64,000 bases of DNA from an uncultured Bacteroides sp. GTDB taxonomy: Bacteria; Bacteroidota; Bacteroidia; Bacteroidales; Bacteroidaceae. The DNA lies in NCBI RefSeq assembly GCF_963666545.1, contig NZ_OY762899.1, forward strand, positions 2,604,001-2,668,000, given 5' to 3'. A program made the translations under genes and the position numbers. Positions 832 through 18,375 of the stretch are shown here, in pieces. The first letter of the stretch is position 1; each line of letters starts with the position of its first letter. The notes under the pieces are model-generated. The model did not search any database. It was not told the DNA's origin and was given only the letters and a program-made list of their open reading frames with translations.

Positions 832-3054
832 TTACCACTTCGGAGGATTTACATTTAATAAATTGCGCACAAAGAAATCATATCGTTTATGTTCTCCATA
901 ATCTCCTCCCATTGTATGATTAGAGCCTGGAATTACGACTAACTCAAAGTCTTTCTTTGCTTTTATTAGTGCGTTGACCACCTGCATGGTTGAGGCCGGA
1001 TCTACATTGTCATCCATTTCTCCTACTACTAGCATTAGCGGACGTTTAAGTAAATGTGCATTGACTACGTTTGAAGATTCTTCGTATTGCTTCTCTATAG
1101 GATAGCCCATCCATTGTTCATTCCACCAGATTTTATCCATGCGGTTGTCGTGACATCCGCAAGAAGAGTAGGCTGCTTTGTAGAAATCAGGATATAGCAA
1201 GAGGGCATTGGTCGATTCTTGCCCACCGGCAGATGCACCGAAGATGCCTACCCGACTGACATCCATATATGGGTATTTGGTTGCTGCTGCTTTTATCCAT
1301 GCTATTCGGTCGGGTAACCCGGCATCTTTCAGATTCTTATAGCATACATCCTCAAATGTTTTGGAACGGAAAGAAGTTCCCATTCCATCGAGTTGTACTA
1401 CGATAAATCCTAATTCTGCCAAGCCGGACATAGACCAATTATATGCTGAAAAAGATTTAGGAGTGTATTGACTACCAGGCCCGGCATAAATATATTCAAT
1501 AATCGGATACTTCTTCCCGGGATCAAAGTTCGTTGGCCTGAAGATGACACCCCACATATCCGTTTTGCCGTCTCTTCCTTTAGCCGAAAAGACCTCAGGA
1601 GCCCGCCATCCAGTCTTTACTAATTCGCTTATGTCCGCAGTCTCTAGCGGCATAATGATCTTTCCGTCGCTTGCACTACGAAGAACGGCAACCGGAGCTT
1701 TATCCACCAAAGAATATACATCCACCAAAGATTTCATATCTGTAGAGAATGTAGCCTGATGCATTCCTTCCTCCGGTGTGAGGCAGATTAACCCGCTTCC
1801 ATCGAAGTTAATGCGATAATATCTGAGAAGATAAGGATCCTCATTGGGCACCATGCCATTGGCTGAGAAGTAGATGATCTGATTTTGTTCGTCAACGTGT
1901 ATCACGTCGCGTACATACCATTCGCCTTTGGTTATTTGATTTTTCACTTTACCTGTGTGTCGATCGTATAAATACAAGTGATTCCAATTATCACGTTCGC
2001 TCATCCAGATAATTTCGTTTCCATTAGTAAGATCCTCCCGGAAGTAGCGGTTGTAATTTACAAAGGTCTTGCTAGTCTCTTCGATAATAGTGCTCACTTT
2101 TCCGGTTTCTGCCGATAGCTCCAATACTCTGAATGTCTGATGTCCACGTTCATTATATTCGAATAGAATGTTCTTACTGGCGGCATCCCATTCCAATCCT
2201 CTCACTTCGAACTGACTGTTGAAGAGATCAGTAGAAGGAACGTGAGCTTCGTCGCCATTTACATTGAAAATACGAGGGCATCTGAATGGTAACGCATCGC
2301 CTGGTTTGGTGTATTCGCGTTTATGAAGCTTGGGTTGCAATTGATCCTCCGGAGATGACTCTACAAAATAGATATATCGCTTCTCTGCCGGGCGAACTTT
2401 CATCACGGCCACCTTCTTTGAGTCGGGTGACCATTGGATATAAGCCGAGTAGAATTCGCCCGGAGAACCGTCGAAACTCAGTGCCTTTTCTTTTCCCGAT
2501 GTATTCTCCTTCACATACACATTCTGATTTTTGATAAATGCCGTCTTTGTTCCGTCGGGAGAAACCACAGGTTCACCCTTACTTTCATCACCGGCTTCAG
2601 CCCAATAATTGGCAGTAGGCTTCTCTATTTTTCCTTCATCTTTTAGTAGATCTTTTCTCTCAAAATACATCCACTTATGATCGTTTTGTACAAAACGGAT
2701 TGTGTCGTGAGTAGCATTTATCCCCAATTGCTGAAGATTCAGGTTGTTTGCTTCTATTTTGCTCTGCGTTGCAGAAGAAAGTTGTTTAGCCAGCTTTTGG
2801 TGATTAAAGAACTCTTTTTTTGTTTTTTTTACTGCGTCGACAATCACATAAACTCTTCCTTCAGGAGTGACCCTTACATACCAAAATTGATTGGTATTGT
2901 TTATCCACTGAGGTCGCACATCCGAATAGAATACTTTATTTTTCCATTTTTGGTTCAACGTAAAGGCACGCTGATAGTCTTCTGCCGTGCCTTGTGCATA
3001 GAGTACATTGATAGAAATCAATGCGCTGATAGTCCATAATATTGCTTTCTTCAT
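832..3054 (-). CDS. Secreted S9-family prolyl oligopeptidase / dipeptidyl peptidase IV-like
   Basis: A 740-residue serine peptidase with an N-terminal signal peptide ending near VLYAQ. Residues about 80-470 form the DPP-IV-type beta-propeller, and the C-terminal alpha/beta-hydrolase holds the triad: Ser608 in GASAGG, Asp681 in EMDDNV and His713 in GSNHTMGG. Enzymes of this family cleave next to proline, commonly releasing X-Pro dipeptides in the periplasm. It is the last gene of the leftward PUL, 16 bp after GH127, so it is probably co-transcribed with the glycosidases. I infer that it trims proline-rich peptides left after sugar removal. Exact specificity (DPP-IV, DPP-like or oligopeptidase) cannot be told from sequence. 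Confidence 0.88.
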   Translation of the reverse strand: MKKAILWTISALISINVLYAQGTAEDYQRAFTLNQKWKNKVFYSDVRPQWINNTNQFWYVRVTPEGRVYVIVDAVKKTKKEFFNHQKLAKQLSSATQSKIEANNLNLQQLGINATHDTIRFVQNDHKWMYFERKDLLKDEGKIEKPTANYWAEAGDESKGEPVVSPDGTKTAFIKNQNVYVKENTSGKEKALSFDGSPGEFYSAYIQWSPDSKKVAVMKVRPAEKRYIYFVESSPEDQLQPKLHKREYTKPGDALPFRCPRIFNVNGDEAHVPSTDLFNSQFEVRGLEWDAASKNILFEYNERGHQTFRVLELSAETGKVSTIIEETSKTFVNYNRYFREDLTNGNEIIWMSERDNWNHLYLYDRHTGKVKNQITKGEWYVRDVIHVDEQNQIIYFSANGMVPNEDPYLLRYYRINFDGSGLICLTPEEGMHQATFSTDMKSLVDVYSLVDKAPVAVLRSASDGKIIMPLETADISELVKTGWRAPEVFSAKGRDGKTDMWGVIFRPTNFDPGKKYPIIEYIYAGPGSQYTPKSFSAYNWSMSGLAELGFIVVQLDGMGTSFRSKTFEDVCYKNLKDAGLPDRIAWIKAAATKYPYMDVSRVGIFGASAGGQESTNALLLYPDFYKAAYSSCGCHDNRMDKIWWNEQWMGYPIEKQYEESSNVVNAHLLKRPLMLVVGEMDDNVDPASTMQVVNALIKAKKDFELVVIPGSNHTMGGDYGEHKRYDFFVRNLLNVNPPKW

Positions 3055-3070: not shown

Positions 3071-5476
3071 TTATTCTACTTCCCATTCAAAAATTCCCGA
3101 TGCATTCTTTTCCGGAAGCTTCACCTCTAATTTCATTTCTGTGGTTGTAACGGGCTTGAAGAGAACTTCATTACCAACACCTTTCTCTGTTCCATAAATC
3201 GTGGTATTGTCCACTGTCTTCCATTCTCCCGAAGTGGTTTTATAATATAGCTTCCATGATTCAGGAACCCGGCAACCTCCCCATGGACCATCATCATACC
3301 AGTATACAGTGGATCGTGAAGTAGTTTTAGCATCCTGAAATTTATATGCTATCCATTCGGTTGTTCCCTCTTTAGGCCACCAGTGGTAGTAAGGAACCGA
3401 ACGATCATTCTCATCTTTTGGAAGGAGTTGATCGTTAATGGCTGTAATAGATTTCACATTGTGCGAAGCCGTTATTTTACTTTCGGATGCAATAGTGGGA
3501 GGTAAGCTAGCCCTCGTTGCGCTCAAGTCAATAGGTAACCAAACGGCCATTTCTCCACTTCCGCGATGTGCCCAAGCGTAGTAAGGAATCATGTTCAACT
3601 TCACATCCTTAGTAACTAAACGACCGCTTTCATCGTAACTCAACGTTTGCGCATCGGTTTGAATCATGTTAATGCCATAAAGCAAATCAGGTTTTGAGAT
3701 CACGTTGAATTGGGGCTTTTTATTCACTAATACACTGAGCACACTAAAGTCATTGTCCGGCCATTCGGCGCAGTATACCAAAGGGCCACGTTCTATAGCG
3801 ACCTTTCCTCTATCAGCTTCTACCAGCGAGTGTGCTTTTACAGTTCGCGCTTCCATGTCAAAATGAACTTCAACGCGGTCTCCTTTTTTCCAGATACGAT
3901 TGATCGTGAAGTATCCTTTTTCAGTACTTCCTTCTATTTCCTGTCCATTTACTTTTATGGTATATCCCAATTCTTTCTTGTCTGAATAACTGTATAAGTT
4001 ACCCGGAACAACAGAGCCTTGTACCCAGCCCGGAACACGAATTTTGAGGTTAAACGGCTGTTTACCGCTAGGAGAAACTTCTAGTTTAATATCTCCCGTC
4101 CACGGATAATTGGTTTCTTGTTTTAGTGTTACAGCTTTTCCGTTCACTTTCAAATTAGCGTCGTTTCCCATAAAGAGATTTACATACACATCACTGTTGT
4201 GCACAGCATATACGTACCCTGGAACGGAAGGTATAAAGCGACAGATGTTTGACGGGCAGCAAGCACAACCAAACCACGGCTGACGTTGATGTTGTCCGAT
4301 AGATTCCAATGGGTTAGGGTAGAAGAACCCGCCGCCATCGAGTGATACTCCGGAAATCAATCCGTTATAAAGCGTACGTTCCAATACATCGTAATATTTA
4401 GATTCTCCATGAAGAAGGAATAAACGATAGTTTAAGTACACATTTCCTATCGCGGCACAAGTTTCGCAATAAGCTGACATGTTTGGTAGCTCATAATTTT
4501 CTCCGAATGCCTCTCCATTACCTGTTGCTCCGGTACCTCCGGTAAGGTAAAGCTTCTTGTTTACAATGTTATCCCAAATTTTATCGATAGCATGAATGTA
4601 GGCCGAGTCTCCAGTTAGTGCGGCTACGTCTGCCATCCCGGAATACATATAAGCTGCCCGCACGGCATGTCCTACTGCTTCATCTTGCTTAAAGATTGGT
4701 TCATGTGCTTGACTATACGCATCTTTTCGTTCGGTATATCCTCTTTTGTCGAGAAAGAATTTAGCTTCATTGAGATATTTCTTATCGCCGGTGATTAAAT
4801 AAAGTTTGGCAAGCGCCATCTCGGCTATTTGGTGGCCCGGTACAACAATCAACTGCTCGGGCTTATCGCCAATGGCATGGCATACACAGTCAGCATATTT
4901 AATAGCTATATCAAGGAAATTACGTTTGCCTGTAGCCTGATAATGAGCAATAGCCCCTTCTACCATATGTCCCAAATTATACAACTCGTGACTTAAATCT
5001 TCTTCTTTCTCCCAACGTTTGCTTCCTGCCCATTCGTGTGGATGCTTTGGGTTTTGCGTGCGTGCGGTGTACAAATAGCCATCCGGCTCCTGAGCGGCAG
5101 CAACAATTACCAATACACTATCGATGTATTTGTCCAGTTTCTTATTTGGGTACATTTGCATAGAATAACTAGCACCCTCAATTGTTTTGTATACATCTGT
5201 ATCGTCAAAAGAAAATCCATTAACTTTGATTGTGTCACTTGGGTGAGCTGCTCGTACAAAGTTTAGATAGCGACCTGTTTCTTCGCACTTGCTAAAAGCA
5301 AGAGGTATGGTGACTTCGCGGCTTGCTTTGAGTCGTTGTCCCCAGAAAGAATCAGTCACCTTCACTGCGGTAAAAGGCACAGGCGCAAAAGGATAGCCTG
5401 TATTATCATGCTTCTTCTGAGCATTGGCAGCGAGCGTTATGGTCGCCAATGTAATAGCAAATAATGTTTTTCTCAT
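3071..5476 (-). CDS. GH127 beta-L-arabinofuranosidase family protein (distal copy)
   Basis: An 801-residue protein with a type I signal peptide (cleavage near LAANAQ) and a full GH127 (DUF1680) alpha/alpha-barrel. The unusual zinc-cysteine active site of GH127 is intact: Glu338 and Cys340 in AYCETCAA, and Cys406 and Cys407 in FGCACCP. In the family type enzyme HypBA1 these positions bind zinc and provide the cysteine nucleophile. The last 130 residues or so form an extra beta-rich domain. Known members remove beta-L-arabinofuranose, including sugars derived from hydroxyproline-linked arabino-oligosaccharides. It lies between GH43 and the S9 peptidase with gaps of about 20 bp. A second, lipidated paralogue opens the PUL at 18372-20807. 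Confidence 0.9.
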   Translation of the reverse strand: MRKTLFAITLATITLAANAQKKHDNTGYPFAPVPFTAVKVTDSFWGQRLKASREVTIPLAFSKCEETGRYLNFVRAAHPSDTIKVNGFSFDDTDVYKTIEGASYSMQMYPNKKLDKYIDSVLVIVAAAQEPDGYLYTARTQNPKHPHEWAGSKRWEKEEDLSHELYNLGHMVEGAIAHYQATGKRNFLDIAIKYADCVCHAIGDKPEQLIVVPGHQIAEMALAKLYLITGDKKYLNEAKFFLDKRGYTERKDAYSQAHEPIFKQDEAVGHAVRAAYMYSGMADVAALTGDSAYIHAIDKIWDNIVNKKLYLTGGTGATGNGEAFGENYELPNMSAYCETCAAIGNVYLNYRLFLLHGESKYYDVLERTLYNGLISGVSLDGGGFFYPNPLESIGQHQRQPWFGCACCPSNICRFIPSVPGYVYAVHNSDVYVNLFMGNDANLKVNGKAVTLKQETNYPWTGDIKLEVSPSGKQPFNLKIRVPGWVQGSVVPGNLYSYSDKKELGYTIKVNGQEIEGSTEKGYFTINRIWKKGDRVEVHFDMEARTVKAHSLVEADRGKVAIERGPLVYCAEWPDNDFSVLSVLVNKKPQFNVISKPDLLYGINMIQTDAQTLSYDESGRLVTKDVKLNMIPYYAWAHRGSGEMAVWLPIDLSATRASLPPTIASESKITASHNVKSITAINDQLLPKDENDRSVPYYHWWPKEGTTEWIAYKFQDAKTTSRSTVYWYDDGPWGGCRVPESWKLYYKTTSGEWKTVDNTTIYGTEKGVGNEVLFKPVTTTEMKLEVKLPEKNASGIFEWEVE

Positions 5477-5496: not shown

Positions 5497-7551
5497 TTAT
5501 AATCCGTTTTGAATCTCTTTTTCACTAAAAGGTATATCATATACTTTTAAAGAGTGAAGATAACCTGTAAAAGGCCAGTCACCAATAGCTGTTTTGCCAA
5601 GTGTGATGTATTCTCCCTTAGGCAAAAGTAATACAATATTTTTTTCCTTCATCTTTTTCCCATTAAGATATACTTTTTCTACGTATCCATCGTAAGTAAT
5701 GACCCAATGTTGCCACCCTCCGTTCTTCACTATTTCAGAAAAGCCCATATCTTCAAACCATCCAAAGTGGCAAACGACGCCGCATCGTGGTTCCGTGCCG
5801 TTACATAGCATGATCTTTTCCAATTCTCCTTCCGATGAAACCAGATCGACAATGCATTCGTTTACGTTGGCTTGCGGATTAAAAACCCATGCTTCGAGCG
5901 TATATGGAGCACTGTCTTTCATTGTTTCGGGCAGACTGAAGTTTGATTTAAACCACTGTGTGCTGTCAAAAGCAAATGCTTTGAATTGGCCTTTCATTAC
6001 GATGGGCAGTGAAGATGTTTCGCTTGTAAATACTCCTTTACCTATGCGATTCTTTATGCTTCTAATGGAATCACCTACTTTGTAGTCGTCAGCTTTGATA
6101 TCAAGGAACAATCCTACTCGTTTAGTTGATGCCGGAGTTGGGAGATCCCCGTTCTGATCGTTATCAGCAAATACTTTGATATTCCATATTGCTCCGAACT
6201 GTCCACCCTTTTGCCCACCCGTCACAGTTAATCGTACGTAGCGAGCCTTTGTATTGCCAAAGTCGGCCATTGGACTACCTGCCAGCCGATTGTCTCGCTT
6301 GTCTGCAAAGATGGTCCACTCTTTGCCGTTCGTAGAAGTCTCTATCAGGTATTGATAAAAAGAGGTCGGATATTCAAACTGTGTCCAAATGCGACGTACG
6401 GGTTGAACCTTCTTTAAATCAATTTCAATCCACTCTTTTCCACAAGTACGAGGTCTCCACAGAGTTGCGTTGTTATCGTCTACTGCGTATTCCGGTTTAA
6501 AAGATTCATTGTAATACGAAGACGCTTTCACTGATTTACCCAGTGCAAGATTAGGAGAAAGATTGGTTGACGGCTGTAAGCAGCCAACTCCCAGGTGTCC
6601 GGCATCTACCCTTTCTATTGTTCCGTCTTCACTGAAGATCAGTTTATCAATCGCTATCTGCCGATGCATTCCGCGAGTAGACTGTGGGATGTTGTGTCGG
6701 TGATACACGATGTAGTAGTCATCACCCTCTTGAAGAATGCTGTGGTGACCCGGTCCATGTATGGTACTATCTGCATTCGTTGATAAGATTGGATTATTCT
6801 TTCCAAAGGTGAATGGACCCATTGGTCCTACCTTGCTAGTGGCATATTGCACACGATACGTATGGTCATGACAAGATCCCGATGAATACATGAAATAATA
6901 GATTCCATTTCTTTTCATCATAAAAGGAGCTTCAAAGAAATCCGTAGCCTCCGTGTTGGGGATGAGGTGTGTTTGGGTAAAGCTTTTCATATCATCCGAA
7001 AGTTTACCTACTCCGCAACCAAAACCTTTGTAAATGCCCCAAGTACCCCAATAAAGATACGTGGAGCCATCTTCATCAACAAATGACTGCCCATCCAGAG
7101 TTATAGCATTAACTACAAACCGATCGGGAACCAATACCGTTGCATCATCTCCTAATATATTATGCCAAGGGCCTATGGGTGTGTCCGAAACGCCGCAATA
7201 GATTTTACAAGGTTCGCAGTAGTACATGTAGTATTTACCATCTTTTCCTTGCATCACGTCCGGTGCCCAGATATGATAGGTCGTCGGCCAGTTCATGAAT
7301 ATCATCGTCCAGTTCTGAAAATCCTTAGACGTCCACACCACCGATGGACCTAATCCTCCTCCATTCCCATCAGTCGTTGCATAGATATAATAAGTATCAC
7401 CGAACTTCTTAATCGTAGGATCGGCAAAGTATCCCGGAATAATAGGGTTCCCATTGCTCGGAGCATTCCATGCTGTCTGTTGTGATGAAGTAGGCGTAAT
7501 GTAACAAAAAAAATAGAGCAACGGGAAGAATATGTGGCGTAACTTTCTCAT
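5497..7551 (-). CDS. GH43 glycosidase with F5/8-type C and LamG-like domains
   Basis: A 684-residue secreted protein: signal peptide (about 1-24), five-bladed GH43 propeller (about 35-325), a galactose-binding-like F5/8 type C domain (about 335-465), and a concanavalin/LamG-like domain at the C terminus (about 490-684). The GH43 acidic triad is visible: Asp44 in YFADPT, Asp153 in LDGQSF and Glu207 in FFEAPF. GH43 covers alpha-L-arabinofuranosidase, xylosidase and galactan-acting enzymes. Neighbouring GH127, GH97 and GH27 genes favour arabinose or galactose release, but I cannot assign the subfamily. It follows the zinc-peptidase module by 10 bp and precedes GH127 by 20 bp, so this is a tight operon. 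Confidence 0.87.
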   Translation of the reverse strand: MRKLRHIFFPLLYFFCYITPTSSQQTAWNAPSNGNPIIPGYFADPTIKKFGDTYYIYATTDGNGGGLGPSVVWTSKDFQNWTMIFMNWPTTYHIWAPDVMQGKDGKYYMYYCEPCKIYCGVSDTPIGPWHNILGDDATVLVPDRFVVNAITLDGQSFVDEDGSTYLYWGTWGIYKGFGCGVGKLSDDMKSFTQTHLIPNTEATDFFEAPFMMKRNGIYYFMYSSGSCHDHTYRVQYATSKVGPMGPFTFGKNNPILSTNADSTIHGPGHHSILQEGDDYYIVYHRHNIPQSTRGMHRQIAIDKLIFSEDGTIERVDAGHLGVGCLQPSTNLSPNLALGKSVKASSYYNESFKPEYAVDDNNATLWRPRTCGKEWIEIDLKKVQPVRRIWTQFEYPTSFYQYLIETSTNGKEWTIFADKRDNRLAGSPMADFGNTKARYVRLTVTGGQKGGQFGAIWNIKVFADNDQNGDLPTPASTKRVGLFLDIKADDYKVGDSIRSIKNRIGKGVFTSETSSLPIVMKGQFKAFAFDSTQWFKSNFSLPETMKDSAPYTLEAWVFNPQANVNECIVDLVSSEGELEKIMLCNGTEPRCGVVCHFGWFEDMGFSEIVKNGGWQHWVITYDGYVEKVYLNGKKMKEKNIVLLLPKGEYITLGKTAIGDWPFTGYLHSLKVYDIPFSEKEIQNGL

Positions 7552-7561
7552 AAGTTAATTA

Positions 7562-8227
7562 TTAAAGATGAATTTGGTTACAAATAGGGAGATCCGTTTC
7601 GTAAAAGTAGTTTAGTAGTAACTGATACATTTCCGGATCATATTCTTTTAATTTTTCTCTTCTGTTTATGGAATTATGTACCCCATTGGGTTTTTCTGAA
7701 TACCGGTTGCAGTTGAAGAAAGATTGCACTGTTTCTGCAAAATACTCCTCTTTGTTAGATAGTGCATAAGTATTCTTCCATCGTCCTTTTTCTATGGCAT
7801 GTTTCATCACCGTCTCTAACTTATTATTAAAATCAGGATCGGTTCCTACAATACCAACCGTATGTATTAGGTGGGCAAATTCATGAATCAGAATGTTCTC
7901 TCCTTCATAACGATCTCCAGGTAGACAAATTAAGTTCTCTTCTCCGCAACTCGAACTGAGATCATCCTCGGGTGCACCACCAAATCCTCGGGCCCGTTTA
8001 TTCCAGTAAGCAATGCTATCCGGTGAATTGCAAATATGAGCATATTCAGGTATGTCACAAACTTCTTCTTTTTCGCCGATAACCATGAAGCGACAATGTT
8101 TTTTCACCATGTAAGCCTTTATATCCTCTCGTTTAGCAAGCATTCCCACAATGATTTTACGTGCTACTTTCAGAGCCTCATCATCTACTTTCTCCGATGA
8201 AATGACTGGTATTCCATCGGCATCCAT
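7562..8227 (-). CDS. Zinc-peptidase-like module (HEFAH), out of frame with GH97
   Basis: A 221-codon frame encoding a putative metallopeptidase: HEFAH at residues 115-119, and a downstream helix EYFAETVQSFF (about 161-171) that could supply the third, glutamate, zinc ligand as in gluzincin-like folds. It has no signal peptide of its own and its first ATG lies inside the GH97 gene, overlapping it by 47 bp in another frame. The GH97 frame just upstream reads AAFYKK; removing one A from a 7-A run would join it directly to YMDADGIPV. I infer that this is the C-terminal module of a GH97-peptidase fusion of about 915 residues, separated by a frameshift that is either real (slippage or mutation) or a sequencing error. 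I do not recognise a named family with certainty. Confidence 0.7.
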   Translation of the reverse strand: MDADGIPVISSEKVDDEALKVARKIIVGMLAKREDIKAYMVKKHCRFMVIGEKEEVCDIPEYAHICNSPDSIAYWNKRARGFGGAPEDDLSSSCGEENLICLPGDRYEGENILIHEFAHLIHTVGIVGTDPDFNNKLETVMKHAIEKGRWKNTYALSNKEEYFAETVQSFFNCNRYSEKPNGVHNSINRREKLKEYDPEMYQLLLNYFYETDLPICNQIHL

Positions 8228-10283
8228 ATATTTTTTTGTAGAATGCAGCTAGCTTTAAGGAATCGGGAACAGCTGTAGATGTTTCTTCCTTTTCTAGTCG
8301 GATAGCAAAGCCACCTCCTGAAGCTAAGTGAAGTGTGAGTTTACTATCTCTGGTTACTTGTCTATTTTCTTTTCTATAGTCTGATGCTTGTTTGCCAGCG
8401 TTAATGCCATCTTTAAAAATAACAGCATTGTAAATTCCATCATTATCCAAGAAAGAGCAATCAATGATCACATCTCTTTCATCCCAATTAGTCATTCCAC
8501 CAATATACCAATTAGCTTCTTTTTTGCGGGCAGAAATAATATATTGCCCCAATTCACCGGACAGAATCCGGGTTTCATCTATATCTACGGGAATAGATGA
8601 GATGAAATCCAAGCATTCTTGTTCGTTGTTGTAATTGCTAGGAGCGTCGCAAAGCATTGTAAGCGGAGAATCGTGTACAATGTAGGCTGCCAGCTGATGG
8701 CATCGAGTCCCCATGCTCATTGGGTTTGAATAGATTGCTTGGAAATCTTTTTTTGTAGCATTGCGCATCGCCCCCGGTGTATAATCTACCGGTCCCGCCA
8801 TCATGCGAATATAGGGGAAAGTGACGTCATAGAGTGGCATGTTTCTTTCGACAGAACTCCACTTCACCTCTTCCATGCCAAACACACTCTCAATATTAAT
8901 AACATTCGGATAAGTGCGATTTAATCCGGTAGGCTTATACATTCCATGCAAGTCGAGCGTTAGTTTATATTTAGCAGTTGTTTCGGCAATACGATACACC
9001 ATCTCTACCGCTTTTTGATCGTCTCTATCGAGAAAATCGACTTTGAAGCCTTTAATGCCCATGGACGAATACTTTTCGCAAGCTTCTGTTAGTTGGCTAT
9101 CCAGCACATTGAAGACCGTCCACAAGATGAGCCCGACTTTCTTACTATTGCCATAAGCAATAAGCTCCGCCAAATTTAGAGTAGGGATAGGGGTAAGCAT
9201 ATCTCCACTTTTAGGATCATACCAACCCTCATCCAGTACAATGAATTCAATACCATGTTGCGCTGCAAAGTCTATGTAGTACTTATAAGTTTCCATGTTA
9301 ATTCCGGCTTTGAAGTCAACTCCTTTTGGTCCCCAGTCATTCCACCAATCCCAAGCAACTTTTCCTGTTTTAATCCACGAAGCGTCTCCAATTCTATTAG
9401 GCGAAGCCAGCGCATAGACTAAATTGTTCGTTGGCATATTAGTATCTTTTTCTGTGATTGCCAGAATACGCCAAGGAAAAGAACGGGCACCTTTGGTGCG
9501 AGCAATGCTATTTCCGCGTTCTGCCACATACTCCTGTTTACGCCAAGGATAGAAGTCCGTTTTAGTTGGCAATGGAGCAAAGACTGCTCTCAGGCTTTGC
9601 CCTCCTGTTTGTACAAACATCCCGGGATAATCTTCCAAGTCCGATTCCAGAACGGTCAACTTCAATCCTTTTCCATAATCTACTGTGACGGGTAAAAAAG
9701 CCAGTTGCGACTTAGCCTTGCTCAATGGTGTCACATCATAAGTATTCTGGAAAGCCATAGCGAAAGGTTGCTTTTCATTCGTAGAATAGGGTAAATAGAC
9801 TGTGTAATCTTCGTCAAAGTTAAACTCGGCTATTTCATTCTTTATCTCTACTTCTTTATTGAAAGTAGTATAAAAGCGATAAGCAACCCCTTCATCGTAA
9901 GCTCGGAAGATAATTCCATATCCTCCTTTAAGCTTCAGATCAAGCTCATTGCACGAAGCAGTGAACGACCTGAAGCGGTAAAAAGGAGAGAGAATATGAT
10001 CCTTTATTGCTTTTTGTTTTTTACTAATTACCTGCGGGTTGCCTCCCAAGATTATTCCATCGGATAAGACCAAACCGATCTTACTGCCGGTCAGAAGAGT
10101 TCTAGTCCGGTTATATGCGACGGAATAACACAGCGTGTCCCCACCGGTGGAAATAGTCACTTTCAGTTTCCCATCGGGGGAGCTTACCGTAAAATCCTTG
10201 TTTTTGGCACCTACAGTCCCATACCCTGCCGCTATTATGAATGAGCAGAGAACAATGACGTGAAAAATCTTCTTACCTCTCAT
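8181..10283 (-). CDS. GH97 glycoside hydrolase, retaining (alpha-galactosidase-like) type
   Basis: A 700-residue protein with a signal peptide, an N-terminal beta-sandwich (about 28-290), a TIM barrel (about 295-570) and a C-terminal beta domain ending near GGGFAIRLEKEE. The segment GFKVDFLDRDDQ places Asp416 where retaining GH97 enzymes carry the nucleophile, and GMEEVKW places Glu471 as likely acid/base. Inverting SusB-type alpha-glucosidases use three glutamates in a different arrangement, so alpha-galactosidase is the better inference. After the GH97 fold the chain runs through a linker into AAFYKK and then into an off-frame tail (residues about 688-700) caused by a 7-A run. It is the first gene after the 404-bp gap in the PUL. 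Confidence 0.88.
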   Translation of the reverse strand: MRGKKIFHVIVLCSFIIAAGYGTVGAKNKDFTVSSPDGKLKVTISTGGDTLCYSVAYNRTRTLLTGSKIGLVLSDGIILGGNPQVISKKQKAIKDHILSPFYRFRSFTASCNELDLKLKGGYGIIFRAYDEGVAYRFYTTFNKEVEIKNEIAEFNFDEDYTVYLPYSTNEKQPFAMAFQNTYDVTPLSKAKSQLAFLPVTVDYGKGLKLTVLESDLEDYPGMFVQTGGQSLRAVFAPLPTKTDFYPWRKQEYVAERGNSIARTKGARSFPWRILAITEKDTNMPTNNLVYALASPNRIGDASWIKTGKVAWDWWNDWGPKGVDFKAGINMETYKYYIDFAAQHGIEFIVLDEGWYDPKSGDMLTPIPTLNLAELIAYGNSKKVGLILWTVFNVLDSQLTEACEKYSSMGIKGFKVDFLDRDDQKAVEMVYRIAETTAKYKLTLDLHGMYKPTGLNRTYPNVINIESVFGMEEVKWSSVERNMPLYDVTFPYIRMMAGPVDYTPGAMRNATKKDFQAIYSNPMSMGTRCHQLAAYIVHDSPLTMLCDAPSNYNNEQECLDFISSIPVDIDETRILSGELGQYIISARKKEANWYIGGMTNWDERDVIIDCSFLDNDGIYNAVIFKDGINAGKQASDYRKENRQVTRDSKLTLHLASGGGFAIRLEKEETSTAVPDSLKLAAFYKKIYGCRWNTSHFIGESR
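8231..8237 (-). other. A7 homopolymer at the GH97/peptidase junction
   Basis: On the coding (minus) strand seven consecutive A residues follow the TAC codon for Tyr in the GH97 frame. Six A would give Tyr-Lys-Lys-Tyr-Met-Asp-Ala-Asp and continue into the zinc-peptidase frame; seven give Lys-Lys-Ile-Tyr-Gly-Cys and a stop 56 bases later. The run is a plausible slippery site or a mutation or sequencing hotspot. Confidence 0.8.
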
Positions 10284-10428: not shown

Positions 10429-10506
10429 AACTAGTTCACCGCGGTTAACTAACTAGTTCAGCGTGGTTAATTAACTAGTTCAGCACGGTTAACTAACTAG
10501 TTCACC
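10429..10506. repeat. 22-bp tandem repeat array, 3.5 copies
   Basis: Three full 22-bp units start at 10429, 10451 and 10473, and a 12-base partial unit starts at 10495. Each opens with the palindrome AACTAGTT and continues into a variable centre (CACCGCGG, CAGCGTGG, CAGCACGG) and a TTAA-containing end. The first and last copies share CACC, the middle two CAGC. There are no spacers, so it is not a CRISPR array. Confidence 0.9.
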
Positions 10507-10687: not shown

Positions 10688-12040
10688 CTATTTGTTCAGC
10701 AATTCGCTGCCCGTCACTCTTATTCGATACGGCCACTGTGCATCCTTCTCTTCTGCTCCGGGATTCATCCAATGTTCTGTTGGAGCCCCCATAACAACTA
10801 ACCACAGATGTGCCGGTGGTGGAGTATCTTTCGATATGGTATAACTAAGGGAGCCAGTTGCGTCACGCTTCATCTCGCTATAAATGGATTTCCCATCTTG
10901 TGTCACAGCTACAAAACCATAGCGCCAACCGGCTTTGTTAGTATTGACCGCTGCATATCCTTCTATTCCGGCTTCTCCATCGAAATCTACATTAACCGTA
11001 TTTCCGGGCTGAGGAACGGATAAGGGTATTGCGTTAAAACCGTAGTTCTCCGGGCAATTATCTTGTGCAACCCGATACCATCCCTGTTGGGCTGCTGCCT
11101 CTAGATGCGTAGTATAGCGGTTTGCATACGGACGGGTCTCTTTCCAAACACGTTTAAAATCCCAATTGATGAAATGGCTGCAAGCATCAAACATTTCATC
11201 ACAGAATTGTTCTTGAGTTTGTCCGGTCAAACGTTTATAGGTGATTACGGGGTCTTCACCTCTTTTACCTTGTCGATAAAGTTCAGCAATGAAAGGCAAA
11301 CCTTGTTTGACGCTCCAATATTCCAGTACGTAAGGAGAATGGTAGATATTCTCTAGGTGAAGATAAGCCTTGTGAGTCAATTTGTTGAAAGCAGTCCAAT
11401 GATATTCTTCGTCAGCAATCCATTCTGGGTTTACCTGCCAAAGCATCCATTGTGAAGTCATCTCGAAAAATCCGCATCCACCCCATGCTTCTCCTTCCCC
11501 GTCACAGGAGATTTGTGATTGGAAGCTATGTCCAAGTTCGTGAGCGATGCAGTTTAGCTTTTCGTCTTGAACACGATTGGGTGCAATCCATAATGCACCG
11601 ATTTCGCTGTCGTAATCTCCACCGTAAGCCGTACCATCAAGTGAATAATTGATCATTACCATCATGCGGTACTTGTCACATTTAGAACCAGATTTGGTAA
11701 ATTGTAATGTCTCTCGGTAATAGCGATAAAAGCTTTCCAGCTTTTTCATTAGATTAGGTAGATCCACTTTCATCGAATGCCCTTCTAATTGTGGTGGATT
11801 AGATAGATCATTGCCAAAACCTTTCTCCCAGAAAACAACAAAATTATCTGTATATGCCATGCAATGATAATTCCACTTGCTCTCGGGATTTTGCAGGTCC
11901 ACTCCTTGCAAATCTTTAGGTATGTAAATGGATTTACCCGGTGGTACCGGTATTCCTGTCGCATCTTGAGCTTTAGAGCAACTGCTGATCATCAAAAGAG
12001 TGAGTGATATTATTTGTATACGTGATTTAATCTGTATCAT
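10688..12040 (-). CDS. DUF6055-like lipoprotein with HExxH zinc-peptidase motif
   Basis: A 450-residue predicted lipoprotein (lipobox ISSC, Cys21). The central region carries AHELGHSFQ with the HExxH at residues 167-171, and GCGFFEMTSQ some 20 residues later offers Glu193 as a possible third metal ligand. The C-terminal 110 residues or so look like a beta-sandwich (SYTISKDTPPPAHLWLVVMG). It resembles PUL proteins annotated DUF6055; no activity is established to my knowledge. It follows GH27 by 7 bp and is therefore almost certainly in the susCD transcript. I infer a cell-surface or periplasmic metallopeptidase acting on a glycoprotein; a carbohydrate-binding role is an alternative. Confidence 0.72.
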   Translation of the reverse strand: MIQIKSRIQIISLTLLMISSCSKAQDATGIPVPPGKSIYIPKDLQGVDLQNPESKWNYHCMAYTDNFVVFWEKGFGNDLSNPPQLEGHSMKVDLPNLMKKLESFYRYYRETLQFTKSGSKCDKYRMMVMINYSLDGTAYGGDYDSEIGALWIAPNRVQDEKLNCIAHELGHSFQSQISCDGEGEAWGGCGFFEMTSQWMLWQVNPEWIADEEYHWTAFNKLTHKAYLHLENIYHSPYVLEYWSVKQGLPFIAELYRQGKRGEDPVITYKRLTGQTQEQFCDEMFDACSHFINWDFKRVWKETRPYANRYTTHLEAAAQQGWYRVAQDNCPENYGFNAIPLSVPQPGNTVNVDFDGEAGIEGYAAVNTNKAGWRYGFVAVTQDGKSIYSEMKRDATGSLSYTISKDTPPPAHLWLVVMGAPTEHWMNPGAEEKDAQWPYRIRVTGSELLNK

Positions 12041-12047
12041 TTGTTTT

Positions 12048-13277
12048 TTAGTTTTTAGGCGTTAAGCGAACTAAAAGGCTTCCATGCGCAGGTAGTTCCA
12101 TTATAAGTTTTGTTCGAGTCGTTCCTATACTTTTATGTTGCCATAAATCTCGTATAGAATATTCTTTCTTATTCATGTTTATGGACTGCATATAATAAAT
12201 GGTGTTTTTCTCCCAATCGTAGTTTAATTTCCAACTGCTTTCTCCTCTATTTAAAAAGCATATCGCTGTTTCACCGTTGCTTAATTCTTTGGCCCATATT
12301 TCATGATCGCCCATGTCCATAAATCTGCGTGCTTGATTTCCTAAAGAATCTTGGTTTACAGCTATTACTTCCTTGTTAGTGAGAATTTCTTTGGTCTCTT
12401 GGTTCATCGAACGTAAATCATTGCCCGCCATCAATGGAGCGGCAAGCATGGCCCACATCGAAAAATGGGTGATATATTCGTCTTTTGTCATTCCACCATT
12501 CCCTATTTCCAGCATTTCCGCGTCGTTCCAGTGTCCGGGACCGGCATAAGGATAGAGCTCTGCCATGATATCTATAATCTCTAGAACTCCCACACCGCCC
12601 CAGTCAAATTTACATTGATAGCAGTCGCGAATGTCCGGAGTAACTCTCCAAAGATGTCCTATTCCTTTCCCCCATTTCCAAGGCTGATTTTCACCCCACT
12701 CGCAGATACTGAAAACGATAGGGCGTCCACTCTGTTTTAGGGCATCGCTCATTGTTCTGTATGCAGCTTCGGCATTTTGTCCTTCGCTGGAACACCAATC
12801 ATATTTCAAATAGTCAACTCCCCATTTGGCGTATTGGCGGGCATCTTGAAACTGATATCCTCTACTACCGGGTCTACCTTGGCAAGTGTATGATCCCGCA
12901 CATGAATAAACGCCAAGTTTTAATCCTTTGGAATGGATGTAGTCGGCTAGTGATTTCATTCCTGAGGGGAAACGTTTTGGGTCTACTAGGATGTTTCCTT
13001 CTTCATCTCTCCCTATTTGCCAACAGTCGTCAATGACAATATATTCGTATCCGGCATCTCTCATTCCTGATGCACACATGGCATCAGCCATTTCTTTAAG
13101 GAGAGTCTCACTAACATTACAACCAAATTTGTTCCAGCTGTTCCATCCCATGGGTGGAGTTGGAGCTAAAGACATAAATACAGAATCTGTGATATTCTTT
13201 TTTTCACCGAAGAACATCTGAGCCTGCAGATTGCTTATCGAGAAGATGACACATAAAACTAAATATGTTGTTTTCAT
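12048..13277 (-). CDS. GH27 alpha-galactosidase family protein
   Basis: A 409-residue secreted enzyme (signal peptide to about SNLQA) with a GH27 TIM barrel and C-terminal beta domain. It shows the family opening PPMGWNSWNKFGCN, VIDDCWQ, the nucleophile Asp160 in YLKYDWC and the likely acid/base Asp215 in RVTPDIRD. GH27 includes alpha-galactosidases and a few beta-L-arabinopyranosidases; the latter is also plausible in this arabinose-rich PUL. It lies 81 bp after susD, with a perfect stem-loop in the gap, and 7 bp before the DUF6055-like gene. Confidence 0.9.
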   Translation of the reverse strand: MKTTYLVLCVIFSISNLQAQMFFGEKKNITDSVFMSLAPTPPMGWNSWNKFGCNVSETLLKEMADAMCASGMRDAGYEYIVIDDCWQIGRDEEGNILVDPKRFPSGMKSLADYIHSKGLKLGVYSCAGSYTCQGRPGSRGYQFQDARQYAKWGVDYLKYDWCSSEGQNAEAAYRTMSDALKQSGRPIVFSICEWGENQPWKWGKGIGHLWRVTPDIRDCYQCKFDWGGVGVLEIIDIMAELYPYAGPGHWNDAEMLEIGNGGMTKDEYITHFSMWAMLAAPLMAGNDLRSMNQETKEILTNKEVIAVNQDSLGNQARRFMDMGDHEIWAKELSNGETAICFLNRGESSWKLNYDWEKNTIYYMQSINMNKKEYSIRDLWQHKSIGTTRTKLIMELPAHGSLLVRLTPKN

Positions 13278-13358: not shown

Positions 13359-15143
13359 TTATTCATAAGGTTTTGCGTCTAATTGCGGAGCGCGTCTCAA
13401 CTCATAACGGGGTATTGGCCACCAATAATTTTTTGGAGCATTGAAAGCGCGTTGCTGGATAACTTCCGGATTATGATAATATATTTTCGTTCCGTCTTTG
13501 TATTTATATACCTTTACTCCGGTAACGGGTTGTTTATTGTATATGTTTTCCAACTTCATCCAACGGCGTAAATCAAAAAATCGTTGGCCTTCAAATACTA
13601 GTTCCGCCGTACGTTCGTATTCATATTCTTGATGTATGTTTGTTCCTTTCGCAGGAGGCAATAAGGCGCGGGTCCTAATCAAATTGATATACTTTAAAGC
13701 CTCAGGCGTATTTCCCAGTTCCATTTGGCATTCGGCATAGTTCAGATAGATCTCTGATAAACGAAAGAAAATCCAAGGTGTCGTGTTTGCTACAGTCTCG
13801 TCGTATGTGTTATAATTTGGATTTAAGAATTTTCGCATATTATATCCTGTTTTGCTGCCATTCCACCAACTTTCACCCACGCGGCTGTCTTTACCCCCTA
13901 CAACACCTTCTTCTGCCGGTTCAAAAAGTTCTATTTCACGATTGCTGTCACCATATCCCCACGTTTGTCCATCGGTAAAGATGCTTGCAGCAAGTCGTAT
14001 ATCTCTGTTCTTCCAAGGATTCGTTTCGGTAGCTTGAATTGTTTTTTGTTTTTTGATAGCCTGACCCGTAGCCGGATCCATCACTGTCTCAAGTATTGTA
14101 TATGATTTTGTTTGTCCTGCCACGAAAGTTGTTCCATCCGCATTCTGGAACTTACTGACAATCTCTTCCGTCGGCTGCCATGTACCCCAACCTCCATAAC
14201 CGCTACCGGGACCTGCGGGAGCTTGCATGATAAAGCTCGCATTTGAGCCGGCAACGCTTTTTGTGTCATATAGTTTTTCGAATATAACTTCCGGACTATG
14301 TGAATCCAAGAACAAAGCTCCATATTCAGTACTGTTTGATACTGATTTTAAACTATATACTTTCTGTCCACTGTCGTCGACTAAATCAATTACTTCTTTG
14401 TTCGCTTTAGCCGCTGCCGTCCATTTTTCACTGGAAGGTGTTCCAAACAGAGGGCTTGCCTTATAAAGCAACGTACGTCCTTTCAACGCCAATGCGGCAC
14501 CTTTGGTAGCACGACCAAAATCACTATCGTCTTTGTATTTTACAGGGAGGTCTTTAGCGGCTAAGTCACACTCTTGAACGATAAAGTCGGCTACAGCGTC
14601 CGCATCCGCGCGAGTTTCAGTAAATTCAGAGTCTAAGTTGTATGTTTTTGTTATAATAGGCACACGCCCATACACACTATACAACATATGATAGAAGTAT
14701 GCGCGAAGGAAGTGTGCTTGTCCCACTAATTGATTCTTCCATACCTGATCTCCGTCTTTAGAAGCCGGGGTACTTTGAATTTTTTCCAAAAATTGATTGG
14801 TTAGCTTCACACCTCCGTAGTAATGCGCCCAAGTATTTCCTTTTCCTTCGGTCCATCCAGTGTTGTAATCGTCGCATGACACACGGCCTTGGGTATAGTT
14901 GCTTGTTCCATAATCATGCATGTGGAAACTTTCGTCAGTGTAGTTGCTGAACAAAACGCCAGCACTATTTTCCGCTTCCACTTTTACGTAGCAGTTATTT
15001 AAGAAAGCTTCCGAGAGTGACAGATCACTCCAAACAGCCGCGTCCGAGAATGAGTCCAGCGGTTGTTGGTCCAGAATATCGGAACAAGAAACCAGTCCCA
15101 AACTAGATACTGCGATAGCGGCGTAAATTATATGTTTTTTCAT
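13359..15143 (-). CDS. SusD/RagB-family surface glycan-binding lipoprotein
   Basis: A 594-residue predicted lipoprotein (lipobox GLVSC, about residue 20) with the SusD fold: N-terminal SusD-like part (CSDILDQQPLDSFSDAAVW) and the C-terminal RagB/SusD segment with YLNYAECQMELGNTPEALKY and ELVFEGQRFFDLRRWMK. SusD proteins form the lid of the SusC transporter and capture the glycan at the cell surface. It starts 28 bp after susC ends, the usual paired arrangement. Ligand cannot be predicted from sequence. Confidence 0.95.
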   Translation of the reverse strand: MKKHIIYAAIAVSSLGLVSCSDILDQQPLDSFSDAAVWSDLSLSEAFLNNCYVKVEAENSAGVLFSNYTDESFHMHDYGTSNYTQGRVSCDDYNTGWTEGKGNTWAHYYGGVKLTNQFLEKIQSTPASKDGDQVWKNQLVGQAHFLRAYFYHMLYSVYGRVPIITKTYNLDSEFTETRADADAVADFIVQECDLAAKDLPVKYKDDSDFGRATKGAALALKGRTLLYKASPLFGTPSSEKWTAAAKANKEVIDLVDDSGQKVYSLKSVSNSTEYGALFLDSHSPEVIFEKLYDTKSVAGSNASFIMQAPAGPGSGYGGWGTWQPTEEIVSKFQNADGTTFVAGQTKSYTILETVMDPATGQAIKKQKTIQATETNPWKNRDIRLAASIFTDGQTWGYGDSNREIELFEPAEEGVVGGKDSRVGESWWNGSKTGYNMRKFLNPNYNTYDETVANTTPWIFFRLSEIYLNYAECQMELGNTPEALKYINLIRTRALLPPAKGTNIHQEYEYERTAELVFEGQRFFDLRRWMKLENIYNKQPVTGVKVYKYKDGTKIYYHNPEVIQQRAFNAPKNYWWPIPRYELRRAPQLDAKPYE

Positions 15144-15171: not shown

Positions 15172-18100
15172 TTAGAATGTGACACTCGCTCCGATAGTGA
15201 TCATGCGTTGCAGCGGATATCCTTTTATTCCTCCCGATGCGACGACTTCTCCTTTGGTGTTCTTAAACATTCCGGCTTCGGGATCGCAAATCTTCATCTT
15301 GTCAATAGTGAATAAGTTGTTTCCGTTGACATAGATACGCGCATTCTCAATGCCAATGTTTTGCAGTAGCAGTTTTGGCAGAGTATATCCCAATTCAATT
15401 GATTTCAGGCGAATAAAGGAAGCGTCGCGTAGCCACCATGTGGATGACACACCATTCCATTGATCACCATACGTTTGTTTGATGAAAGCACGCGGCCATT
15501 TTGCGCTTGCGTTTTCTTCCGCCGAGTTCGTTGCAATCCAACGCCCCTCATAAAAATCGGTAGCCATGTTCATCGTGGGTTGAACCATTTGCTTCGCGTC
15601 GGCTTGTCCTTGAAAGAATACATTCAAATCAAAGCCTTTCCAACCCCCATTTAATGTAAAGCCGTATACTATTTTAGGAGTGGCGGATTGATTTATACGA
15701 ACTGCGTCGTCCCAAGTTATTTTTTTATCGCCATTTGTATCTTCATAAATTAAATCACCTGGTTTTGCTTTGGCAATATGAATAGAATTGTTTACTTCTT
15801 CTTGGGTTTGATAGATTCCTAACGCTTTATACAAAACCATGCCATCGATGGTATGCCCGGTAGTGCGTTGCCATTCGGGAGTTGTGGCGGCCTCATCCAT
15901 ATATACGACTTTATTCTTCGCATAAGTGAAGTTACCGCTTACCCCCCATGTGAAATCACCTCTTTTATCACGATAGGTCGCTACTATCTCGATTCCTTGG
16001 TTATTGACTTTTCCTAAGTTCTCAGCAGGCAGTGATAATCCGGAATAAGTAGGTATGGATGCATTACGTGTGATGAGGATATCGGTGCGCTTTGATTTGA
16101 AGTAATCAAAATCCAGTCCAAACTTTCCATCAAGGAACTGGCTATTAAAGCCTATATTAAATGTTTGCGCTTTCTCCCACGTGATAAGCGGATTCGCCGT
16201 GCGAGACTCATATAGTCCTTTTACGACCTCTGTCCCAAACATGGAAGAAATGTCTGTGTTAAATTTGTATTGTGACAAATATTGATAAGCTGACACGTCA
16301 TCATTGCCCATCATACCCCACGAAGCTTTTACTTTCAAGAAATTGACGATTTTTGATACCGGTTTAAAGAAATTTTCTTCTGAAATGATCCAACCTGCCG
16401 AGAACGCGGGGAAAAGTCCCCAACGATGACCGGGGGCAAAGTTCATGGAACCATCATATCTCATCGTAACTTCCGCCAAGTATTTATCTTTGTATCCGTA
16501 ATTGACACGTCCGAAGTAGTTTTGACGCGCGGTGGCTTGAGAATATCCTCCATTGTCTTTATCCTCCGGAACGTTGCTACCAGCAAAGATTTCAGGAATG
16601 GCCGTGGAGAGATAATTGGTGCGATAAGCGGATACCGTGTTGTAGTTATACTTGCTTTGTTCATAAGCGACAAACGCGTCCACTCGGTGCTTGTTGTTAA
16701 AGAGACGGGAGTACCCAATGCGTCCGTTTAAGGTAATCGTGTTATCGTTGTTTGCCCATGAGTTCACACTAATCGCACCCGTCGCGTCGCGTCGATTGGT
16801 ATATTCTTTGGTGCTGTAATCATATTGGTAGACATCATAAGGATGTTTTATTGTCTTACCGTTGCTAAAATGATAGTCCATCGCGGCGTATCCTTCAAGA
16901 TAAAGACCTTTGGTTATAACATCTAGGTCAAAACGGATGCGAGGTTTTAAGTTTAGCGTATTGTAAGTGGTTTTGTCTGTGCCTGGAAGGTCTGTCACAT
17001 TGATGGCAGCGTTGTTCGTCACGCCATCGTATCCGACACGAGGTAGGCCATTTGGATAATAAGGCGCCGCCATCGGATTAGTGCTCAGGAAATATCCGAA
17101 TAAATCCTCGCTGGTGTATACTCCGCGGTTTCTAACTTCTTGGCGGCCCAATATATCGAAGCTAAAATGAATGGACTTAGATATTTTAGCGTCAATATTA
17201 GTGGTGAATTGGTATTGATTATAGTCTTGAGCGCCTTTCTTGTAGATAACGTCTTGCGATAAGTACTGAGCGGAAGTGTAGAAGGACAACTTGTCGTTGC
17301 CACCGCTCACTGACAAGCTGTGTTGGGTTTTAGTAGTCCAGTCTTTCGCCACGGATTTCCACCAGTCCGTGCTTGGATATTTTATCTGGTCTTCACCGCT
17401 TTGCAATAATCCAAGTGCTTCCGCCGAATAAGTAGCTGCCTCTCCATGTCCCAAATCGTACTCGTTGACATAGGTCGCATATTGAAATGAGTTCAGCATT
17501 TCCGGGATACGGGTTGGTTGAGAAATGGCCACATTTCCGTTATAGTTGAATTTAATCTTGCCTTCTTTGCCTCGCTTGGTGGTGACCAATATAACGCCAT
17601 TGGCGGCACGGGCACCATAGATAGCGGCGGAAGCATCTTTCAACACTGAAATAGATTCAATGTCTTCAGGGTTCAGGCGGCTAAACTCACGGTCGGCGAT
17701 GCCATCCACTATGATTAATGGGCTTGTGCTCCCAAGAGTCCCTTTCCCGCGAATTAGAATATCAGCATTGTCTTCTCCTGGTTCTCCAGAGCGTGTGTTG
17801 GCTATGATTCCAGCCGTCTTTCCGGCTAAAGAGTTACTGATGTTAACGGTGGATACCTTTTTTAGTTCATCGCCTCCAACTTGTGATACGGAACCCGTTA
17901 ATGTTGCTTTCTTTTGGGTGCCATATCCTACTACTACTACCTCATCCAATGTTTCGGTATCTTCATCCAAAGTGATATTTATGTTGCTTCTGTTTCCCAC
18001 CGCTATTTGTTGAGTCTTGTAGCCAATGTATGTAACAGAAAGCAAAGACTGCGCACTGTTCACTTTTAGAGAATATTTCCCTTCAAGATCAGTAATTGTT

Positions 18101-18375
18101 CCATTAGTGGTACCCTTTTCCACTACATTTACTCCGATAATAGATTCTCCATTTTTGTCTTTAATAGATCCGGAGACGGTTATCTCCTTTTTTTGTTGCA
18201 CGCTTTCTACCGACAGACTTGTTCTTTCATTGGTCGCATACAATGGCATGCATCCCACTCCTGTCGCCAGAAAAGCACAAGTTGCCATTTTCAAGATTCC
18301 TTTTTGCAAAGGGCTTGCATTTCTTAAGGATGTGTTCATTTTCTTTTGAGTTTTAAGATTTATACTAAAGGTCAT
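15172..18375 (-). CDS. SusC/RagA-family TonB-dependent outer-membrane transporter
   Basis: A 1067-residue protein with signal region, a carboxypeptidase-regulatory-like domain (about 68-145), the conserved DETLDEVVVVGYGTQKKATL stretch leading into the plug, and a long beta-barrel ending in aromatic TIGASVTF. It imports oligosaccharides (or glycopeptides) made at the surface, energised by TonB-ExbBD. The longest frame begins with ATGA overlapping the stop of the GH127 gene. An internal ATG at 18339, giving MNTSLRN before the hydrophobic signal, is a credible alternative start. Unusually, an enzyme gene precedes susC in the operon. Confidence 0.95.
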   Translation of the reverse strand: MTFSINLKTQKKMNTSLRNASPLQKGILKMATCAFLATGVGCMPLYATNERTSLSVESVQQKKEITVSGSIKDKNGESIIGVNVVEKGTTNGTITDLEGKYSLKVNSAQSLLSVTYIGYKTQQIAVGNRSNINITLDEDTETLDEVVVVGYGTQKKATLTGSVSQVGGDELKKVSTVNISNSLAGKTAGIIANTRSGEPGEDNADILIRGKGTLGSTSPLIIVDGIADREFSRLNPEDIESISVLKDASAAIYGARAANGVILVTTKRGKEGKIKFNYNGNVAISQPTRIPEMLNSFQYATYVNEYDLGHGEAATYSAEALGLLQSGEDQIKYPSTDWWKSVAKDWTTKTQHSLSVSGGNDKLSFYTSAQYLSQDVIYKKGAQDYNQYQFTTNIDAKISKSIHFSFDILGRQEVRNRGVYTSEDLFGYFLSTNPMAAPYYPNGLPRVGYDGVTNNAAINVTDLPGTDKTTYNTLNLKPRIRFDLDVITKGLYLEGYAAMDYHFSNGKTIKHPYDVYQYDYSTKEYTNRRDATGAISVNSWANNDNTITLNGRIGYSRLFNNKHRVDAFVAYEQSKYNYNTVSAYRTNYLSTAIPEIFAGSNVPEDKDNGGYSQATARQNYFGRVNYGYKDKYLAEVTMRYDGSMNFAPGHRWGLFPAFSAGWIISEENFFKPVSKIVNFLKVKASWGMMGNDDVSAYQYLSQYKFNTDISSMFGTEVVKGLYESRTANPLITWEKAQTFNIGFNSQFLDGKFGLDFDYFKSKRTDILITRNASIPTYSGLSLPAENLGKVNNQGIEIVATYRDKRGDFTWGVSGNFTYAKNKVVYMDEAATTPEWQRTTGHTIDGMVLYKALGIYQTQEEVNNSIHIAKAKPGDLIYEDTNGDKKITWDDAVRINQSATPKIVYGFTLNGGWKGFDLNVFFQGQADAKQMVQPTMNMATDFYEGRWIATNSAEENASAKWPRAFIKQTYGDQWNGVSSTWWLRDASFIRLKSIELGYTLPKLLLQNIGIENARIYVNGNNLFTIDKMKICDPEAGMFKNTKGEVVASGGIKGYPLQRMITIGASVTF

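Follow-up and report, generated by a model that had tools for sequence, protein, structure and literature searches.

Gene content of the locus and the divided reading frame

The window, by which we mean the whole 64,000-nucleotide stretch of Bacteroides DNA analysed, carries on its (-) strand genes for a dipeptidyl peptidase IV (DPP4)-type S9 peptidase (832..3054), a GH127 enzyme predicted to be a beta-L-arabinofuranosidase (3071..5476), a GH43 protein with F5/8-type and LamG-like domains, predicted at family level to be an alpha-arabinofuranosidase (5497..7551), a PPEP-like zinc metallopeptidase (PEP; 7562..8227), a GH97 enzyme (8181..10283), a DUF6055 protein with an HELGH motif and weak likeness to Svx (10688..12040), a GH27 enzyme predicted to be an alpha-galactosidase (12048..13277), a SusD-like protein (13359..15143), a SusC-like outer-membrane transporter named from its sequence and its adjacency to SusD (15172..18375) and a second GH127 enzyme (18372..20807). 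A hybrid two-component regulator is encoded on the (+) strand (21088..25119). By eye, a 22-bp direct repeat (AACTAGTTCA...GGTTAACT; about 10429-10506) recurs some four times in the gap upstream of the GH97 gene.

The GH97 open reading frame (ORF) of 700 amino acids passes the model for retaining alpha-galactosidases (NF053844, 860.7 bits against a cut-off of 800), and its catalytic parts are complete. Its best solved match, 3a24 (652 bits), resembles it over the whole GH97 part; 3a24 has no peptidase, whereas the GH97 enzymes of relatives carry one at the C-terminus. The Pfam GH97_C match stops at residue 663, leaving a 37-residue tail that reads through AAFYKK into 13 more residues. The PEP ORF of 221 amino acids overlaps this tail on the same (-) strand in a different frame and contains both HEFAH and EYFAE, and the two frames part at a run of seven A residues (A7; 8231..8237 on the (-) strand), which is A6 in B. 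ihuae. The observation of the earlier note, made from the letters alone, was confirmed, including the two domains and their frame relation; its interpretation is supported in part. Upstream of its ATG the PEP frame is open for only 7 codons, and the alignable peptidase domain begins about 14 residues ahead of MDADG; taken with the end of GH97_C, this places the break just within the peptidase domain, past a complete GH97.

The PEP ORF thus lacks the first residues of its domain, and it also has no obvious signal peptide, as had been claimed: by hydropathy, its N-terminus is weakly hydrophobic (1.33), compared with 2.86 for the hydrophobic N-terminus of GH97. Secretion of PEP is putative, the indication for it being hydrophobic N-termini, and the separate PEP ORF of the window lacks such an N-terminus. 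In the window genome, the GH97 enzyme would stay complete and exportable, with PEP deprived of an export signal and of the beginning of its domain. No further peptidase copy was found in this genome.

A conserved fusion and a shuffled peptidase module

A scan of the genome collection yielded 46 loci encoding a relative. In B. ihuae (L001), GH97 and PEP form a single ORF of 906 codons from ATG, in which FYKKYMDADG is uninterrupted and the GH97 and peptidase parts are 93% and 97% identical, respectively, to those of the window. PEP is present in 15 of 99 genomes of the genus, the window's included; the long frame is open in 11 of them (904-972 codons), a shorter one in three (268-303 codons) and one of 228 codons in the window genome. 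The GH97-PEP fusion is real and conserved. With 97% amino-acid identity to B. ihuae and a dN/dS of 0.097 (0.138 for GH97), the PEP reading frame is, judged from these comparisons, more than chance. The earlier note had held that homologues with a separate peptidase gene and its own signal peptide, and with a GH97 that ends before AAFYKK, would speak against a fusion. This is half borne out: separate peptidase genes do occur, in Bacteroides sp. UBA1317, genome G093 and others, with N-termini that by eye resemble signal peptides, but GH97 fusions coexist with them.

GH97 is not the only partner. Among 40 loci (L001-L040), PEP shares its ORF with GH97 in 21, with GH127 in two (L018, L034), with GH43 in two (L032, L033), with GH27 in one (L030) and with a DPP4-like enzyme in one (L016, cut at a contig end); 12 loci have an unfused PEP, among them L003, which is cut at a contig end, and L039 was left unscored. 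Pfam confirms the partner domain in B. ihuae and in the six fusions with other partners, and all five partner families also occur in the window locus. A tree of 43 PEP domains, in which several branches are long and uncertainly placed, needs at least 12 changes of architecture. The PEP module has thus been shuffled among the enzymes of one locus. In UBA1317 (L002:5755-6663), DNA matching the end of the GH97 signal peptide (78% over 69 bases) runs straight on into the linker and PEP (93% over 763 bases) with no GH97 module in between, a state that may reflect either a loss or an older condition. The 3.2-kb contig with the DPP4 fusion (L016) is labelled Clostridiaceae; its PEP-DPP4 sequence groups with Bacteroidota, and the contig is possibly misbinned.

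PEP scores 26.8 bits against Pfam ATLF (PF07737), just below the cut-off of 27.4; relatives in L001, L002, L030, L032 and L033 score 21.0-24.6, also under the cut-off, those in L016, L018 and L034 have no ATLF match, and no NCBIfam model matches the PEP ORF at E up to 1. The fold of the B. ihuae domain is closest to those of PPEP-3, PPEP-2 and PPEP-1 (VIA-align; top of 987 chains aligned). The PPEP pattern of HEXXH, a catalytic Tyr and a Glu seven residues beyond it was compared with PPEP-3 and is found in 39 of 39 PEP rows (H129, E130, H133, Y168 and E175). An invariant tryptophan, W89, sits 40 residues ahead of the first His, and this spacing suggests that its counterparts may be Tyr113 in PPEP-3 and Trp103 in PPEP-1. 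Identity to PPEP-3 is 17%, and about 17% to the PPEPs as a group, so that bond specificity is not transferable to PEP. Unlike the PPEPs, the Bacteroidota peptidase is fused to glycosidases or lies beside them, and Pro-Pro cleavage is only putative here. The catalytic domain of anthrax lethal factor is more distant from PEP than are the PPEPs; in contrast to that toxin, the alignable PEP domain has no targeting part, its context is a nutrient locus, and nothing in it signals a toxin role.

Origin of the break

What separates GH97 from PEP in the window genome is a single base of the A run. We compared the junction in 56 homologue rows (L001-L040, with L007 and L037 entered twice, and L048-L061; several genomes are present twice, and the too distant L041-L046 were omitted). 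None has a run longer than A6, many have AAG codons at this point, and A7 is found in the window alone. The break is either young or not real; in our main reading it would be a true recent mutation.

A real minority share of the probability falls to the alternative that the additional A arose in base calling or assembly, in which case the strain would make the full fusion like B. ihuae. This would fit a one-base homopolymer difference that is unique among 56 rows and a peptidase that is still constrained (dN/dS of 0.097). When five sequences were compared, residues 129 and 149 were peculiar to the window, and residue 219 was shared with the most distant sequence alone. An error of this kind is harder to reconcile with the quality of the surrounding sequence. 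We compared 400 kb each of the window genome and B. ihuae, of which 286,641 bases aligned. Out of 273 B. ihuae ORFs of at least 150 amino acids, the window genome had 186 whole, two split and five with a stop, and 80 could not be judged, as the match was absent or partial. All five stops fall between residues 5 and 29; the other split ORF breaks ahead of a later ATG, within its leading 65 residues. These six cases we read as over-extended starts. In the reverse comparison, 182 of 263 window-genome ORFs were intact, none was split, 10 had a stop, counted wherever it lay, and 71 were unjudged. The 96 frame-changing indels in window-genome ORFs of at least 100 amino acids were, by eye, mostly compensating pairs where the match was poor or where an ORF ended. 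One other homopolymer difference, at 386238 of the joined stretch, falls close to the beginning of a different ORF, which the window genome keeps open. Of 193 comparable ORFs, GH97-PEP is thus the only one with a clear break in its interior, despite 125 runs of seven or more inside ORFs of the 400 kb, which leads us to reject general homopolymer noise in the assembly over the compared stretch.

Programmed slippage on A7, which the earlier note had offered as a way to make the short GH97 alongside the long fusion, is very improbable and was rejected: the run does lie exactly where the frames part and the peptidase frame is conserved, but all 56 relative rows have A6 or shorter, most relatives read straight through, and A7 runs are common within the window (the two strands together hold 30, where shuffled sequence predicts 55).

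Predicted action on hydroxyproline-rich glycoproteins

Our main reading, to which we give a probability of about 0.6, is that the two ORFs are the separated halves of one protein, a conserved and probably secreted fusion of a GH97 alpha-galactosidase with a PPEP-like metallopeptidase, encoded in a Bacteroides locus for extensin-type hydroxyproline-rich glycoproteins. Such glycoproteins are structural components of plant walls. Enzyme families suited to the extensin linkages, a SusCD pair and a regulator all lie in the window locus, for which action on extensin is predicted. Extensin carries alpha-galactose on Ser and up to four arabinoses on Hyp, three beta-linked and the last alpha-linked, according to two papers (PMC8012813, PMC7933510), and the match of the locus's enzyme types to these linkages supports the extensin reading. 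The substrate, the bond cut and the order of steps are ones we infer: (i) GH43 would strip the terminal alpha-arabinose; (ii) the two GH127 enzymes would strip the beta-arabinoses from Hyp; (iii) GH97 and/or GH27 would release alpha-galactose from Ser; (iv) PEP, together with the Svx-like DUF6055 protein, would cleave the exposed Pro/Hyp-rich backbone; (v) the DPP4-like enzyme would trim X-Pro dipeptides; and (vi) SusCD would import the products.

The neighbourhood of PEP also supports this reading. Counting fused partners and labelling neighbours at 100 bits or more, we found that of 40 loci 31 have GH127 around PEP, 26 a DPP4-like gene and 25 GH43; for the 30 that are at least 12 kb long the counts were 28, 24 and 24. 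As a control we used 20 hand-picked stretches of 11.6-20 kb around GH97 genes without PEP, where GH127 was absent (0/20), GH43 reached 100 bits in none (one at 77), and a DPP4-like enzyme (124 bits) and GH27 each occurred once. The notion that GH97 genes generally lie near GH127 was rejected on these 20 stretches. Ten further PEP stretches of the same genus (L123-L132), mostly from genomes already counted, all have GH127 and GH43.

A described system close to this one strips Ara4-Hyp by means of GH43, GH121 and GH127 enzymes in Bifidobacterium and Xanthomonas, and the same paper gives HypAA (GH43) and HypBA2 (GH121) homologues as absent from Bacteroides (PMC6085000). The window locus shares GH43 and GH127 with the HypAA/HypBA2/HypBA1 system; it differs in having no GH121 among the scanned locus proteins and in its added alpha-galactosidases and peptidases. 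Its GH43, likened to HypAA by family alone, would have to be a different enzyme, given the reported absence of HypAA homologues from Bacteroides.

The DUF6055 neighbour weakly matches the Svx/AvrXca family. Like Svx, it combines HEXXH (here HELGH) with an invariant Glu, 22 residues past the second His, and with 74.5 bits against NF040510 (cut-off 625) it is no member of the family by that test. By sequence it matches no solved structure. DUF6055 and PEP as a single family were rejected (profile comparison probability of 1.3%). Svx enzymes are metallopeptidases proposed, from docking, to attack alpha-galactosylated extensin (PMC10815107, PMC9266454). The extensin idea predated this link to the literature. 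The likeness to Svx supports the extensin reading, as do the hydroxyproline dehydratase and P5C dehydrogenase genes beside PEP in other genera. Counting against it are the score of PEP below the ATLF cut-off and its low identity to PPEP-3, the reported absence of HypAA and HypBA2 homologues from Bacteroides and of GH121 from the scanned locus proteins, the action of GH127 enzymes on arabinogalactan, the distance of DUF6055 from the Svx cut-off, and the lack of a glycosidase locus at 14 of the 16 new PEP loci treated below.

Among solved structures, the first GH127 matches 6ex6 best (1136 bits), presumably BT3674. An arabinogalactan protein or arabinose-bearing pectin might be the target, with the peptidases merely clearing accompanying protein, which we consider unlikely while granting it some weight. 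GH127 enzymes act on arabinogalactan too: B. theta BT3674 and exo-galactanases jointly attack the larch polymer (PMC10850190). However, no beta-galactosidase or galactanase family was found among the scanned locus proteins, with GH43 assigned at family level, and the repeated fusion of a PPEP-like peptidase favours the protein chain as the main target. That PEP acts on animal hydroxyproline proteins (collagen, dietary gelatin) is improbable: the hydroxyproline dehydratase neighbours seen in other genera would be equally compatible with it, but the fusions repeatedly involve enzymes for plant-type glycans (GH127, GH43, GH97 and GH27).

Among the literature matches listed, which lay largely outside subscription journals, neither this fusion nor any Bacteroidota extensin locus is described, and those matches include no Bacteroidota system for the protein chain of hydroxyproline-rich glycoproteins. 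A PUL survey lumps peptidases into one broad class (PMC6499787). If the extensin reading is right, PEP would represent a new class of gut enzyme cutting Pro/Hyp-rich chains, a single protease module joined to five enzyme families of one pathway, and the natural single-protein fusions of B. ihuae and Phocaeicola vulgatus ATCC 8482 (L023) could be studied directly. The lasting interest lies in the PPEP-like module and the predicted hydroxyproline-rich glycoprotein locus.

A family-wide search located PEP in 36 of 201 genomes; none of the 54 matches is interrupted by an internal stop, and by eye 12 of these 36 genomes hold two PEP copies in one frame of 533-567 codons. It is rare in a phylum-wide sample (4 of 395 genomes, the window genome and B. 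ihuae among the four). Twenty additional PEP stretches included four that repeat earlier loci (L163, L164, L165 and L168), leaving 16 new ones. A glycosidase locus accompanies PEP in two of them (L166, L167). In the other 14, genes near PEP include P5C dehydrogenase (seven stretches), an aminopeptidase-P-like protein (six) and a hydroxyproline-dehydratase-like protein (five), and seven of the 14, one just 3.8 kb long, have neither a glycosidase nor a hydroxyproline context.

In L176, L177, L180, L173, L179 and L039, PEP, often in tandem, lies near trans-4-hydroxyproline dehydratase, P5C dehydrogenase and aminopeptidase-P-like genes, neighbourhoods that possibly represent a hydroxyproline catabolic operon. 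L176 passes the models for trans-4-hydroxy-L-proline dehydratase (1149.8 bits, cut-off 1100) and P5C dehydrogenase (744.2, cut-off 613.6), and its activase falls below (302.9 against 425); the L180 aminopeptidase is below its cut-off (149 against 465), yet above its Pfam cut-offs. The same set of hydroxyproline-related genes is found near PEP in L039, and the aminopeptidase gene is close to PEP in the GH97 fusions L004, L006 and L008 and in L027. None of these context genes occurs in the 20 control stretches or in L123-L132, and nothing in the window genome reaches the cut-off for hydroxyproline dehydratase (best 113 bits). PEP is thus linked to hydroxyproline in two ways, though not everywhere, and the catabolic context fits collagen as well as extensin. 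Tentatively, and at a little under even odds, PEP may found a Bacteroidota family of (hydroxy)proline-directed endopeptidases, serving as a glycosidase plug-in for extensin glycan and backbone and reused elsewhere at the head of hydroxyproline catabolism. Distant kin of its HExxH half (31-36% identity over 66-104 columns) occur in other gene settings in Verrucomicrobiota (L041-L046).
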